A stretch of 64,000 nt of DNA. Origin: Candidatus Nitrososphaera evergladensis SR1. GTDB taxonomy: Archaea > Thermoproteota > Nitrososphaeria > Nitrososphaerales > Nitrososphaeraceae. A program made the position numbers and the translations under genes. Location of the stretch: the NCBI RefSeq assembly GCF_000730285.1, contig NZ_CP007174.1, positions 2,542,001-2,606,000 of the forward strand, given 5' to 3'. Of this stretch, positions 55,553-60,499 are shown piece after piece; position 1 is the first letter of the stretch; every line of letters starts with the position of its first letter. Below the pieces are notes generated by a model. That model ran no database searches and was not told the DNA's origin. It saw nothing but the letters and a program-made list of their open reading frames with translations.

Positions 55553-56386
55553 TTATGAGGTCTCTCCCTTTAGGTGCTTGTCAAAGAACGCAAGCGTCTT
55601 TTGCCAGGCGTCCTTTGTTTCCGTTGGCGCATAGTTGGGCCCCGACGGGTTTGCAAACGCGTGCCCCACGCCGTTGTACACATGGATCTCGTTTTGTATG
55701 CCGTCCTTGTCAAGTGCCTGCTTGAATGCGTTTACCTGCTCTACGGGTATCGACTGGTCCGCGCTTCCAAAGATGCCAAGGACCGGCCACTTTATCACAG
55801 ACAGCGCTTTTGGATCGGTAACGGGCCTGCCGTAATAGAGCCCAGTTGCGTTCATTTTTTCGTTCAGCGCAAGCTGGAGCGACCAGTCGCCTCCAAAGCA
55901 CCAGCCAAGCGAGCCTATCTTGCTTGCGTCGACAGAACTGTCGTTGCGCAGGTAGCTGACTGCGGCTTGCAGGTTCTTTACCGCCTCGCCGGGGTGGTTC
56001 CTGACGCCCGTGGCAAGCTGCTGCGCTTGCGAGCTAGCAGTCGTCACCTGCCCTTTGTACAGGTCTGCCGCAAGCACGACGTACCCTTCTGACGCCATGT
56101 GCCGGGCCATATCCTTGATGTTGTCGTTTAGCCCCCACCACTCGTGGATCATGACGATGCCAGGGTACTTGCCGCCAGTGCCCGCAGGCTTGGCAAGAAA
56201 GCCTGACGCATTGTCATAGTATTGAACCATAGAAGTCTCGACTTTTGAAACGTCTTTACCATCTCCAAGCATAGTGACGTTGCTTTCCACGCTGTCGCCC
56301 TTTTGCGTGCCAATCCATACCGCGATGGCAATCGCGGCCGCTATGGCCGCTGCACCGCCTATTTTGGCAACGGACTTGGAATTCAT
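55553..56386 (-). CDS. membrane-anchored dienelactone hydrolase family protein
   Basis: 277 residues. Signal-anchor GGAAAIAAAIAIAVWIGTQK, then alpha/beta hydrolase: PGIVMIHEWWGLNDNIKDMA (family-specific EWWG), nucleophile Cys in IGSLGWCFGGDWSLQ, acid in GIFGSADQSIPVE and His in YNGVGHAFANPSG. The GWCFGG elbow with Cys replaces Ser as in dienelactone hydrolases. External location is unusual for the degradative enzyme, so a cell-surface esterase is likely. Tail to tail with the cupredoxin gene, 2 bases apart. Confidence 0.9.
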   Translation of the reverse strand: MNSKSVAKIGGAAAIAAAIAIAVWIGTQKGDSVESNVTMLGDGKDVSKVETSMVQYYDNASGFLAKPAGTGGKYPGIVMIHEWWGLNDNIKDMARHMASEGYVVLAADLYKGQVTTASSQAQQLATGVRNHPGEAVKNLQAAVSYLRNDSSVDASKIGSLGWCFGGDWSLQLALNEKMNATGLYYGRPVTDPKALSVIKWPVLGIFGSADQSIPVEQVNAFKQALDKDGIQNEIHVYNGVGHAFANPSGPNYAPTETKDAWQKTLAFFDKHLKGETS

Positions 56387-56433: not shown

Positions 56434-57270
56434 CTATTGGCTGTGCTGGTCAAGCCCCCACCTTGCCCGGACCTTCTCCTCCAGCTTTACAAACACCAGC
56501 CGGTCAAAGAGCAGGCCTATGGCAAAGACGGCTATCATGACTGCGATTATCTGCCCCATGTCCTGAAACTCCCTGCCTATCTGGAGTATGTGCCCAAGCC
56601 CGTACAGGGTCGTTATCAGTATCTCGGCGCCTATCAGGGCGTGCCATGCAAACGACCACGCCTGGCGGAGCCCGATTATCAATGAAGGCGTGGCGGCAGG
56701 GATCATTACGTACCTGAAAAGCGAAAAGCCGCTTGCGCCCATGTTTTTTGCAGCCCTGATGTAGATGGGAGGTATGTTGCGTATAGAGCTGTAGGTGGAT
56801 ATCATCACCGAAAACACAGACGCCATGACCAGCACAAACAGTATGCCAAAGTCGTTAAAGCTGATGAGCAGTATTGAAAACGGCACCCATGCAATGCTTG
56901 GAAAAGTGAGCAGTCCTACTGCAAACGAGCTGAGGGTCTTGCCAAAGCTTGGGAACTTGACCATCGCCAAGCCCACTGCGCCGCCGATGCCTACAGAAAT
57001 GACAAACCCGGCAAACAGCCTCCACATCGTGACTCCGATGCCAATTGTCAGGGAGGAGTCGGCAACCAGGCCGACTATTGTCTGCGCCACCATTGCCGGC
57101 GAGGGCATCAGAACCTTGGGCCAAATCCCAAGCGAAAAGGCAAGCTGCCAGACGCCAATGAACGCGGCTATGAACAAAAAAGCGTTTGCCGCATCCGTCG
57201 CATCGAATCGGCTATTTTTCTTGGCGCTGTTGCTGCTAACCTTCTTGTGGATTGTGGTTTCTTTTTGCAA
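56434..57270 (-). CDS. ABC transporter permease, nitrate/sulfonate/taurine type
   Basis: 278 residues, six helices. The EAA loop is present: IYIRAAKNMGASGFSLFRYV then MIPAATPSLIIGLRQAWSF. N-terminal 25 residues are charged and cytoplasmic. Matches SsuC/TauC/NrtB. It overlaps the ATPase gene by 35 bases and is the last gene of the importer pair. Confidence 0.93.
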   Translation of the reverse strand: MQKETTIHKKVSSNSAKKNSRFDATDAANAFLFIAAFIGVWQLAFSLGIWPKVLMPSPAMVAQTIVGLVADSSLTIGIGVTMWRLFAGFVISVGIGGAVGLAMVKFPSFGKTLSSFAVGLLTFPSIAWVPFSILLISFNDFGILFVLVMASVFSVMISTYSSIRNIPPIYIRAAKNMGASGFSLFRYVMIPAATPSLIIGLRQAWSFAWHALIGAEILITTLYGLGHILQIGREFQDMGQIIAVMIAVFAIGLLFDRLVFVKLEEKVRARWGLDQHSQ

Positions 57271-58084
57271 TTTGAAAGTCCTCCTCTAGTTCTCGCAAAA
57301 GCTCCCTGCGGATCGCGCTTATCTCGTGGCTCTCGATGTCCCTGGGCCTTGGGTGGTTGACTGCGATCTCTTTTTTGACGTTTCCCGTCCTTGGCGAGAG
57401 CACGATTATCCTGTCGCCCAGAAGCACCGCTTCGTTGATGTCGTGTGTCACAAACAGTATGGTCTTGCCGGTCGACTGGTGAATCTGCACCAGCTGCTCG
57501 TGCAGTATGTCTCTGGTCTGCACGTCAAGTGCGGCAAAAGGCTCGTCCATGAGCAGAATCCGCGGGTCAAGGGCAAGTGCACGCGCTATTGCAACCCTCT
57601 GCTTCATCCCGCCTGAAAGCTGGTAGATGTACGAGTCTGCGAATTTGGCTAGCTGCGCCATCTCGATGAAACGGCTTGCGGTTGCCCTTCTTGACTCCTT
57701 TGTGACGCCGGCCACCTTTAGCCCAAACTCGACGTTGTCAGAGACTGTCAGCCACGGGAACAATGCGCCTTCTTGAAATATCACTACTCGCTGCGCTTTT
57801 CTTATTCCATCGCTTCCGTCTCTGACTGAGACCAGGCCCGAGTCTGGAGCGTCGAGGCCGGCCACGATGTTCAAAAGCGTGCTCTTGCCGCAGCCAGACG
57901 GCCCCACTATGGTGACAAACTCGCCTTCACGCACGTCAAGGTTAATCCCGTCAAGCACCCTGTGACGATCCGCGGTCTTGTTTTCATGCAAAAAAGCCTT
58001 GGAGACGCCTCTTAGCTCCAAGACAATGTTATTTCCGCTACGGGGATATTCTTCTTTTTGCGGCTGTTGTTCAATCAGAGACAT
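57236..58084 (-). CDS. ABC transporter ATPase, nitrate/sulfonate/taurine type
   Basis: 282 residues from ATG 58084 (MSLIEQQPQK). Walker A GPSGCGKST, Q-loop VIFQEGALFPWLTV, signature LSGGMKQRVAIARALALDPR, Walker B ILLMDEPFAALD and switch TILFVTHDINEAVLLGDRI. Close to SsuB/TauB/NrtD. An in-frame ATG at 58126 would add 14 residues. Same direction as, and 174 bases after, the binding-protein gene. Confidence 0.95.
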   Translation of the reverse strand: MSLIEQQPQKEEYPRSGNNIVLELRGVSKAFLHENKTADRHRVLDGINLDVREGEFVTIVGPSGCGKSTLLNIVAGLDAPDSGLVSVRDGSDGIRKAQRVVIFQEGALFPWLTVSDNVEFGLKVAGVTKESRRATASRFIEMAQLAKFADSYIYQLSGGMKQRVAIARALALDPRILLMDEPFAALDVQTRDILHEQLVQIHQSTGKTILFVTHDINEAVLLGDRIIVLSPRTGNVKKEIAVNHPRPRDIESHEISAIRRELLRELEEDFQIAKRNHNPQEG

Positions 58085-58258
58085 GTACGAACAGAGCAGG
58101 AGTGCATCAGATATAATCTGCATCAAAGGTGCAACGGGGGCATCATGGACGCAGTTTTGGCATGATCATTGCATGTATTTCAAGGGCACTCGGCAAAATT
58201 TCTTTGCGGCCAGAACAAAAAAGAGAGAAAGGAAAAAAGGAGAGAGAGAAAAACTCCT

Positions 58259-59356
58259 TTAGCTTATCTGCGGCAGGCCCTTCTCCTTCAACACCTCGTT
58301 CAGCAGAGTCAGGTCGTATATGCCGGAAAGGTCCGGCTTTTGCTTCAAAAAGCCAATGTCGTGCGCGTCGCTTGCCGACTTGAAGAGCGAGTCCTCCACG
58401 GGGTCGTACGTGAGCGTCAGCCGGGAGGTGCCGGCCTTGTACTCGTCTTCGGGTATTGTCTTGCCGGTCAGCTTTTTCAGCTCCTCGTTGTACACCTTGA
58501 GCGCCTCGTCAGGGTGATCGTTAATCCACTTTGTCTCGTCCACGTTGGCCGCGATGACCTTCTTGACCACGTCCGGGTTGTTCTTCAAATAGTCTGTGCT
58601 GACGATGATGTGCGCCGTGACGAACTGGCCGCCGGGCCACCGGTCCTGCTCGTCAAGGAATATGCGCCCGCCGGCCTCCTTGACAAGCTTGGCGCCCCAG
58701 GGCTCTGGCACCCACGCGCCGTCAATCTCTTTTTTCAAAAAGAGCGCAAGGATGTCCGCGTTTGCAGCAGGAATGACCTCGACGTTTCCGCCGTTTTCCT
58801 TTGTCCTGTAGCCGTTCTCAAGCAGGTACTTGCGCAATGCCACGTCCTGCGTGTTGCCAAGCTGCGGCGACGCAAACTTTTTGCCCGCAAAATCCGCCGG
58901 CGTCTGTATGCCAGAGTCGTTTCGCACTACAAACACCGCGCCTCCGCTTGCGGCCCCGGACACGATCCGCAGCCCCTGCCCGTCAGACTTGACATAGCCG
59001 TTTATCGCCGGGTTTGGCCCGATGTAGGTGATGTCGACCTGCTTTGCAAAGAGGGCCTCGATGGCAGACGGCCCGGCGTTGAACACCTGCGTCTTGACCT
59101 CGACGTTGCTCCCAAGCGCCTTTTGAAAGTCGCCCCGGCCAAGCCCTATCACGGCCTGCGCGTGGTTGATGTTTGGAAAGTACCCAATCCTGACTACCTT
59201 TGATTCCTGCTGTTGTTGCTGGGGAGCTGCAGCCTGGCTTGAAGAAGCCGCGTCAGAGTTGGCCGCCTGCGATCCCGCAAAAAGCGGGACGGAAGTGGCA
59301 ATGACTGCGACTATTATGGCCGCAGCTATCCCAAACTTGATCTTGTTGTTATTCAT
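58259..59356 (-). CDS. ABC transporter substrate-binding protein, nitrate/sulfonate/taurine type
   Basis: 365 residues from ATG 59356. Signal-anchor (FGIAAAIIVAVIATSVPLFA), a Gln/Ala-rich linker, then a type 2 periplasmic fold: VVRIGYFPNINHAQAVIGLG, FNAGPSAIEALFAKQVDITY, IGPNPAINGYV, SPQLGNTQDVALRKYL and GAWVPEPWGAKLVKEAGGRI. This is the SsuA/TauA/NrtA group. The pocket Pro-Asn-x-Asn-His suits anions such as sulfonates; nitrate is the alternative. A T-rich tract on the minus strand after 58258 may attenuate expression of the downstream genes. Confidence 0.92.
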   Translation of the reverse strand: MNNNKIKFGIAAAIIVAVIATSVPLFAGSQAANSDAASSSQAAAPQQQQQESKVVRIGYFPNINHAQAVIGLGRGDFQKALGSNVEVKTQVFNAGPSAIEALFAKQVDITYIGPNPAINGYVKSDGQGLRIVSGAASGGAVFVVRNDSGIQTPADFAGKKFASPQLGNTQDVALRKYLLENGYRTKENGGNVEVIPAANADILALFLKKEIDGAWVPEPWGAKLVKEAGGRIFLDEQDRWPGGQFVTAHIIVSTDYLKNNPDVVKKVIAANVDETKWINDHPDEALKVYNEELKKLTGKTIPEDEYKAGTSRLTLTYDPVEDSLFKSASDAHDIGFLKQKPDLSGIYDLTLLNEVLKEKGLPQIS

Positions 59357-59512
59357 GCCCTTTTCCTGTCCCGGAGGGGTTAATACTGCTGGCAACGGTG
59401 CAAAAAATGCAAGAAAGGCGCAGGTTCACGGTATGAATTTTGGAAAAAGTGCAGGATCCGCACAGTTCACAAGTTCAAAATAGGCGCACATCTTGCATAT
59501 ACATTATCAGAT

Positions 59513-60499
59513 TTGCTAGAGAGCTACGTGAAGAACAGGGTCGACGTTAAAAAGCCGCGCAAGGAAGGCAGGACATATGTTATAGACAAGCTGCAGGGGC
59601 TTGACAAGGAGAACTTTGAGGCGCTTGCGCCGTTTATCGACGCAGTCAAGATCTATGGCGTCCTGCCGCTATTGCTTTCCGAGTCTGTGCTGCAAAAAAA
59701 GATCAAGTTCTACCAGGACCTTGGCGTCAAGGTGTCCACTGGGAGCACCATTTCCGAGTACATGGTGTCTGAAAACGCGTTTGACAAGTTTGTAGGCGAC
59801 GCGGCAAGGGTCGGCTTTAACATCATCGAGATAGGCGAAAACGGCATAGACCTGACATTTGAGCAAAAGAAAAAGCTGACCGATACAATCCTGGCAAGGA
59901 ACCTTGACTTTCAGTGGAAGGTGGGCAAAAAAGACCCCCGCCACCAGATCTCTATCGACGCGACGATAGCCAAGGTGGAAGAGGCAGTCAAGCTGGGCTC
60001 TGACAAGGTGGTGCTTGAGGCAAACGAGGGCTTCAGCGTCGGAATATACGACGAAAAGGGCGCAGTGAGGTGGAACGCTGTCGGGGCGCTGACTGCAAAG
60101 TACCCGCCGACTACGTTCATCTTCGAGGCGCCGCTTGAGCACCAGCAGTCGGCGCTCATTGCAGAGTTTGGCCAGCGCGTCAACCTTGCCGAGATCCATA
60201 TCGACGCGGTTTCGTCGATAGAGTCGCAGAGGAGGGGCTTTCCGTCCAAGGCGTCGTTTGGCGTCTCGTACCTGCGCAAGGACCCGGAGGGCGGGCCGGC
60301 TGCCAAGTTTGTATATTTCATAATAAAGTCAAAGCACCCAATAGATCAGGTGGAGCTGATGGAGATGAGCCGTCTGCCCAGAAGGACGGTCCAGAGCGCT
60401 GTGGAGGACCTAAAGAGCCAGGGCCTAATAATAGAGCGCAGCAGCCTTGACGATGCAAGGAAAAAGATGTACGCGCCAGTGCAGTCGGTGTGGCTATAA
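59513..60499 (+). CDS. comA: phosphosulfolactate synthase-like protein fused to C-terminal wHTH
   Basis: 328 residues from TTG 59513 (GTG 59528 also possible). Residues 15-245 form a ComA-type TIM barrel: YVIDKLQGLDKENFEALAPF, AVKIYGVLPLLLSESVLQKK, KVSTGSTISEYMVSENAFDK, FNIIEIGENGIDLTFEQKKK and VVLEANEGFSVGIYDEKGAV. ComA adds sulfite to phosphoenolpyruvate. After the barrel, residues 255-328 form a winged helix (HPIDQVELMEMSRLPRRTVQ, SAVEDLKSQGLIIERSSLDD ARKKMY) of the MarR/phage type. It diverges from the sulfonate-type importer by 156 bases. An enzyme-regulator sensing a sulfonate-related ligand is an attractive inference. Confidence 0.85.
   Translation: MLESYVKNRVDVKKPRKEGRTYVIDKLQGLDKENFEALAPFIDAVKIYGVLPLLLSESVLQKKIKFYQDLGVKVSTGSTISEYMVSENAFDKFVGDAARVGFNIIEIGENGIDLTFEQKKKLTDTILARNLDFQWKVGKKDPRHQISIDATIAKVEEAVKLGSDKVVLEANEGFSVGIYDEKGAVRWNAVGALTAKYPPTTFIFEAPLEHQQSALIAEFGQRVNLAEIHIDAVSSIESQRRGFPSKASFGVSYLRKDPEGGPAAKFVYFIIKSKHPIDQVELMEMSRLPRRTVQSAVEDLKSQGLIIERSSLDDARKKMYAPVQSVWL

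Follow-up and report, generated by a model that had tools for sequence, protein, structure and literature searches.

A gene of Candidatus Nitrososphaera evergladensis SR1 that encodes a phosphosulfolactate synthase (ComA)-like barrel fused to a winged helix is likely to encode a ComA-derived one-component transcriptional regulator of sulfur acquisition which, in Nitrososphaeraceae, would control an adjacent importer via candidate sites upstream of both genes. The fusion gene (59513-60499, plus strand) is located in the analyzed window, a stretch of 64,000 nucleotides, and diverges from genes of an SsuA-family importer (56434-59395, minus strand). An earlier note on this DNA, the coordinates of which are correct, proposed that the fusion controls organosulfur uptake. 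The conserved wing, the gene linkage and the promoter elements described below support a regulator, but organosulfur uptake is too narrow a role because the fusions of Thermoplasmata adjoin genes for PAPS reductase, ATP sulfurylase or APS kinase.

The combination of a ComA-type barrel with a C-terminal winged helix is borne out by Pfam, by the AlphaFold2 fold and by matches to MarR-family structures. The protein (328 amino acids, TTG start) matches Pfam ComA (PF02679) over residues 13-243, with an E-value of 2.1e-64 and 217.7 bits against a cut-off of 25.2. The MarR-like winged helix occupies residues 255-328 (60275-60496, plus strand). When the whole protein is searched, MarR_2 matches residues 268-316 with an E-value of 8e-5 and 23.2 bits, under the 27-bit Pfam cut-off, so the wing is assigned on the basis of fold and family profile; searched alone, the domain yields a MarR_2 match with an E-value of 5e-6 and 27 bits, and this model is matched in 39 of 42 family wings. 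In the AlphaFold2 model, obtained with 60 family members as input (mean pLDDT 88.6), the barrel is followed by helices at residues 262-273, 279-286 and 290-302 and strands at 306-310 and 318-322. The modeled barrel superposes on Methanocaldococcus jannaschii ComA (1qwg) with a Z score of 32.7 and an rmsd of 1.6 over 240 residues (31% identity), and on Bacillus subtilis 1u83 with a Z score of 26.5, compared with about 14 for unrelated barrels. The best Foldseek matches of the isolated tail, predicted separately with a pLDDT of 91.3, are MarR-family structures (for 3bpv, TMq 0.82 and rmsd 1.1). Nine wing columns are invariant in the 42-sequence family alignment, and the residues of the recognition helix and the wing are among the most conserved of the fusion protein.

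The strands and the profile matches also confirm that the fusion is transcribed away from the importer. The SsuA-family substrate-binding protein (58259-59395, minus strand; the likely true start is the ATG at 59356) scores 211.5 bits against TIGR01728, for which the cut-off is 163.5, whereas the best NCBIfam models for the SsuB/TauB-type ATPase (57236-58126, minus strand) and the SsuC-type permease (56434-57270, minus strand) remain under their own cut-offs. Directly downstream of the importer lies a gene (55553-56386, minus strand) for a member of the dienelactone hydrolase family whose N-terminal part includes a hydrophobic stretch. The genome contains two ComA genes and two genes with an SsuA_fam match, which are paired and divergent both times, the second back-to-back pair being located at G000:C1:877168-877866 and 878128-879015. 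By a rough estimate, the chance of finding one of two SsuA-family genes no more than 5.5 kb from any particular gene in 2.95 Mb is about 0.7%, and because each of the two fusions faces one of the two SsuA-family genes and the linkage recurs in relatives, the pairing is more than chance. SsuA-family genes are present in fusion-less relatives too (for example, G044 and G058), so the importer does not require the fusion. The second importer cluster of this genome (L070:8970-10992) contains SsuA and SsuC matches with no SsuB match nearby, and its counterparts in L055, L058, L062 and L066 likewise have no nearby SsuB match.

The ComA loci were collected from the relatives of this organism (34 of 61 genomes with ComA), from the class (ComA in 73 of 400 genomes, with neighborhoods taken from part of these 73) and from named genome contigs (105 relatives of the query, of which the best 80 were kept). 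Merging of near-identical loci (99% identity) left 116 distinct fusions, which were divided, according to their locus and how closely they match the window protein in sequence identity, into 61 Nitrososphaeraceae-like fusions (at least 50% identity), 13 from other Nitrososphaeria and 42 of a Thermoplasmata group, the last with 39 titles naming Thermoplasmata, Thermoplasmatota, Thermoplasmatales or Euryarchaeota, two 'bacterium' and one 'Halobacteriales'. The fusion is thus not a peculiarity of ammonia-oxidizing archaea (AOA), given that 42 of the 55 distinct fusions beyond the Nitrososphaeraceae-like set belong to the Thermoplasmata group. Absence of the winged helix in homologs, which the earlier note had named as speaking against its idea, is not observed, the wing being present in every full-length fusion that was read: a strict recognition-helix motif is found in 132 of the 142 ComA ORFs of at least 240 residues retrieved with fusion queries, and of the other 10, seven carry a variant of the motif recognizable by eye and three are interrupted by contig ends or breaks. 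On a quick tree, the distinction between fusion and non-fusion proteins needs one change, so one fusion event suffices; long branches meet in this tree, and it is used for the single-origin statement only. Eleven wing-less ComA proteins also occur in Nitrososphaeria as a separate set, and in most of them many shared residues differ. The ten wing-less ComA-like proteins found in L032, L035, L074-L079, L082 and L084 of Nitrososphaeria, which are without many of the residues common to characterized ComA proteins (K137 is mostly gone and E79 is changed to R), are, judging by their sequences, a separate family.

The neighbors of the fusion genes were identified by Pfam matches of example genes and by blastp against these examples. 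The linkage to Ssu recurs in relatives, with Ssu genes within 5.5 kb of 38 of the 61 Nitrososphaeraceae-like fusions (31 of the 42 for which each flank extends to 2 kb), so importer and fusion are not unlinked everywhere outside this genome. Among the 61, the arrangement is divergent in 15, codirectional with Ssu upstream in 13, codirectional with Ssu downstream in seven and convergent in three; the other 23 have no Ssu genes within this distance (11 of the 42 with good flanks), several of them being second copies in Nitrosocosmicus. Linkage is also seen for 9 of the 13 fusions of other Nitrososphaeria, eight to Ssu genes and one to ATP sulfurylase and APS kinase genes. None of the 42 fusions of the Thermoplasmata group is found beside Ssu genes, and 16 (11 of the 30 with good flanks) lie beside genes for PAPS reductase, ATP sulfurylase or APS kinase, with PAPS reductase as the divergent neighbor in 13 of these 16; at 26 of the 42 loci, none of the sulfate genes looked for was found. 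At one Thermoplasmata locus (L110:3507-9046), a phosphodiesterase-superfamily gene, an APS kinase gene, an ATP sulfurylase gene and the fusion gene run in one direction, and next to them comes a match to the short-chain dehydrogenase that stands downstream at many such loci. Separately, a rhodanese gene is found near the fusions in a cluster of 10 loci, on the same strand and upstream in L039 (7029-7946, minus strand) and L103.

Candidate regulatory elements precede both the fusion gene and ssuA. The imperfect dyad ATAGGCgcAcatcttGCATAT (59480-59500), 33 bases before the start codon of the fusion gene, matches 11 of the 12 positions of ATATGC-N9-GCATAT and is a candidate operator of this gene. 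In the genus Nitrososphaera, such an imperfect 21-base dyad is found about 28-36 bases before the fusion start of both paralogs; it is weak outside this genus and fades in Nitrosocosmicus and other genera. The candidate dyad overlaps the likely TATA region of the fusion gene, a placement that resembles that of a repressor site. Oriented TGC(A/G) repeats (59399-59424, minus strand) are located directly upstream of the putative TATA-like element of ssuA, AGTATTAACC (59378-59387, minus strand), as might be expected of an activator site. A dyad with 11 or 12 of the 12 positions is present in 13 of 59 fusion promoters (12 of 12 in seven of them), compared with a mean of 0.13 and a maximum of 2 after shuffling. 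Of 36 regions upstream of ssuA, 14 contain at least two oriented YTGCRY elements, for which shuffling gave a mean of 0.92 and a maximum of 4, and the hexamers TATGCA and ATATGC are each present in 11 of 13 divergent gaps, with means of 3.8 and 3.5 after shuffling. These shuffles overstate the significance because the promoters are related and had already served as the source of the patterns that were then counted in them. The YTGCRY elements are concentrated around -70 and -50, and the reverse orientation is not enriched in the 36 upstream regions. We treat the dyad, the repeats and the gap hexamers as leads. A wider regulon was considered and rejected: the genome contains 13 dyad-like sites against 6 for a backwards control, mostly in or between genes that have no obvious sulfur role as read from the surrounding ORFs. 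The PAPS reductase-ATP sulfurylase operon of this genome (G000:C1:2198968-2200720), which is unlinked to the fusion, lacks the dyad (best match 8 of 12), and no common dyad was found in the comA-cysH gaps of Thermoplasmata.

To assess the description of the barrel as enzyme-like, we tabulated the residues that are identical in the ComA proteins of M. jannaschii and B. subtilis (M. jannaschii numbering), which appear to lie at or after the barrel strand ends, the usual ligand face. Most Thermoplasmata copies fit this description, with W46 and K137 retained in all 42, E133 and N227 in 41 and R170 in 38, but the Nitrososphaeraceae-like copies have lost several of the residues. In the latter, D20, E79, E103, E168, E205 and Q212 are kept in all 61, K43 in 60 and K137 in 57, whereas W46, E133, R170 and N227 are found in none, with replacement of E133 by K in 60, of R170 by N in 61 and of N227 by E in 59. 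Other Nitrososphaeria are mixed (E133 in 7 of 13, R170 in 10 of 13). Because the pocket appears to be conserved, though not as that of the enzyme, a changed binding site seems to be the simplest reading; given the loss of conserved residues on the likely active face, the barrel probably no longer makes phosphosulfolactate, and catalysis was probably lost in the Nitrososphaeraceae lineage. ComB was found in none of the 34 ComA-bearing relatives, and the sole relative with ComB among the 61 (G050) lacks ComA. Coenzyme M biosynthesis in this lineage, as far as the ComB route is concerned, was rejected on the strength of the absence of ComB and the residue loss. Among the 27 genomes reached via the loci, mostly metagenome assemblies that may be incomplete, 11 encode ComB, namely eight of the nine in which the fusion adjoins PAPS reductase (the exception is L121) and three of the other 18; the kept residues and this co-occurrence suggest that the Thermoplasmata copies may still be enzymes.

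A still-working phosphosulfolactate synthase in which the wing is minor or autoregulatory and the product feeds a sulfonate pathway is a reading to which we give very little weight. The close superposition on 1qwg and the retention of K137 and several other shared residues are compatible with such an enzyme, and the absence of ComB alone does not exclude it because bacterial coenzyme M gene clusters with a ComA-type enzyme and without ComB are described in the accessible part of a published study (PMC11507031). What argues against it is the disappearance of W46, E133, R170 and N227 from every Nitrososphaeraceae-like copy, together with the absence of ComB and a score of 162.7 bits against the NCBIfam equivalog arch_ComA, for which the cut-off is 280, although none of eight further fusions scanned reaches 280 bits either. 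It is similarly improbable that the linkage is an inherited gene order devoid of regulatory meaning and that the wing serves another purpose, such as an oligomer contact. Many loci are unlinked and DNA binding by the wing is a prediction, but three observations count against this reading: adjacency persists while the arrangement varies among the 61 loci, the fusion has other sulfur genes as neighbors in another phylum, and the recognition helix and the wing are strongly conserved.

More weight, though well short of making it likely, can be given to a regulator whose importer carries another small anion or a nitrogen compound instead of a sulfonate, so that the signal would not be sulfur. NMT1-type binding proteins have many substrates, and the ATPase and the permease are below all equivalog cut-offs shown. 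The genome contains four weak matches to the alkanesulfonate monooxygenase SsuD (TIGR03565), none of them over the cut-off. N. viennensis, as far as the accessible text of PMC4129164 goes, gained no growth from taurine, and the accessible portion of a published survey of 70 nitrifier genomes states that tauACB and taurine-degradation genes were not found. Against this, the binding protein passes the SsuA_fam subfamily model, the homologous fusion in Thermoplasmata adjoins sulfate-assimilation genes, the chemistry of ComA itself uses a sulfur anion, and a rhodanese gene is located near some family members.

Under the preferred reading, that of a ComA-derived regulator of sulfur acquisition, a single event in an ancestral archaeon would have added a MarR-like winged helix to the C-terminus of a ComA barrel. 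The barrels of Thermoplasmata keep the conserved residues of the enzyme, with the gene often beside sulfate activation and reduction genes that yield sulfite, whereas in Nitrososphaeraceae the synthesis of phosphosulfolactate is probably gone and a small ligand of sulfur or PEP metabolism would still be bound. The fusion protein would occupy two kinds of site: the dyad that covers the TATA region of its own gene, where binding would limit its expression, and the TGC repeats that precede the TATA box of ssuA, the place of an archaeal activator. The level of the ligand would thereby set importer expression. The pathways encoded beside the family have sulfite in common, as product or as starting point: PAPS reductase produces sulfite, sulfonate breakdown releases it, and sulfite is the sulfur donor and co-substrate of ComA. 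In the accessible part of the literature, ComA is described as sulfonating PEP. The ancestral fusion might have sensed sulfite supply via its own active site, and the Nitrososphaeraceae lineage might have retained the place of sensing while dropping the chemistry; for the present ligand, sulfite together with a partner, a phosphorylated acid and an imported sulfonate are all conceivable. A bolder and tentative extension, which we regard as possible and somewhat on the doubtful side, is that sulfite sensing in archaea is the function of the ComA-wHTH family as a whole. In Thermoplasmata, the protein would be a trigger enzyme that uses up sulfite (with PEP) and also controls the sulfite-producing PAPS reductase-ATP sulfurylase operon, whereas in AOA it would have lost catalysis, changed its ligand and taken over sulfonate import.

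To our knowledge, the sensing and regulation of sulfur supply in archaea are poorly known. The LysR-type regulators CysB and Cbl of bacterial cys and ssu genes do the job that is proposed here for the fusion, control of sulfate and sulfonate acquisition, with unrelated sensor and DNA-binding domains. The fusion of the window resembles the MarR family in the wing fold and in a weak sequence match; full-length MarR architecture includes its own dimerization helices, whereas here only a 74-residue wing follows the barrel, in which the ligand site is expected. The likeness to ComA ((2R)-phospho-3-sulfolactate synthase) consists of the barrel fold, K137 and a shell of acidic and polar residues, the differences being the winged helix, the adjacent importer, the lack of ComB and, in Nitrososphaeraceae-like copies, the four lost residues. 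Regulators that combine an enzyme domain with an HTH already exist, so the fusion is not a regulator of a wholly new kind, but no ComA-HTH protein described as a regulator was found in the open-licence literature searched, and no open-licence paper was found in which 'phosphosulfolactate synthase' and 'Nitrososphaera' occur together. In particular, RbkR, an archaeal riboflavin kinase with an HTH, is presented in the accessible part of its description as both a gene regulator and an enzyme (PMC8305020). Both are archaeal metabolic enzyme domains fused to an HTH, and ComA-wHTH is likewise linked, except for an unlinked minority, to genes of a related pathway, but the enzyme family and the pathway are different, the HTH of RbkR is N-terminal, and catalysis has probably been lost in the fusion of the window.

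Should the regulator reading hold, soil ammonia oxidizers would gain a named sulfur regulator with testable sites, and the annotation 'phosphosulfolactate synthase', a label that wrongly hints at coenzyme M, would be corrected. Sulfonates are a major soil sulfur pool. The family would also form a graded series from enzyme to transcription factor, namely an enzyme-like fusion with the companion phosphatase, the same without it, and a residue-stripped sensor; if the sulfite-sensor reading is true as well, this path would be observable and the family would be an archaeal counterpart of CysB and Cbl. Two loci with unusual structures were encountered among the family members. In L104, the fusion and Ssu genes are broken and duplicated, and in L088 (6055-6360, minus strand) a 102-residue ORF that consists of the wing only (MarR, E-value 7.6e-6) adjoins and diverges from a full fusion and is possibly a barrel-free derivative.
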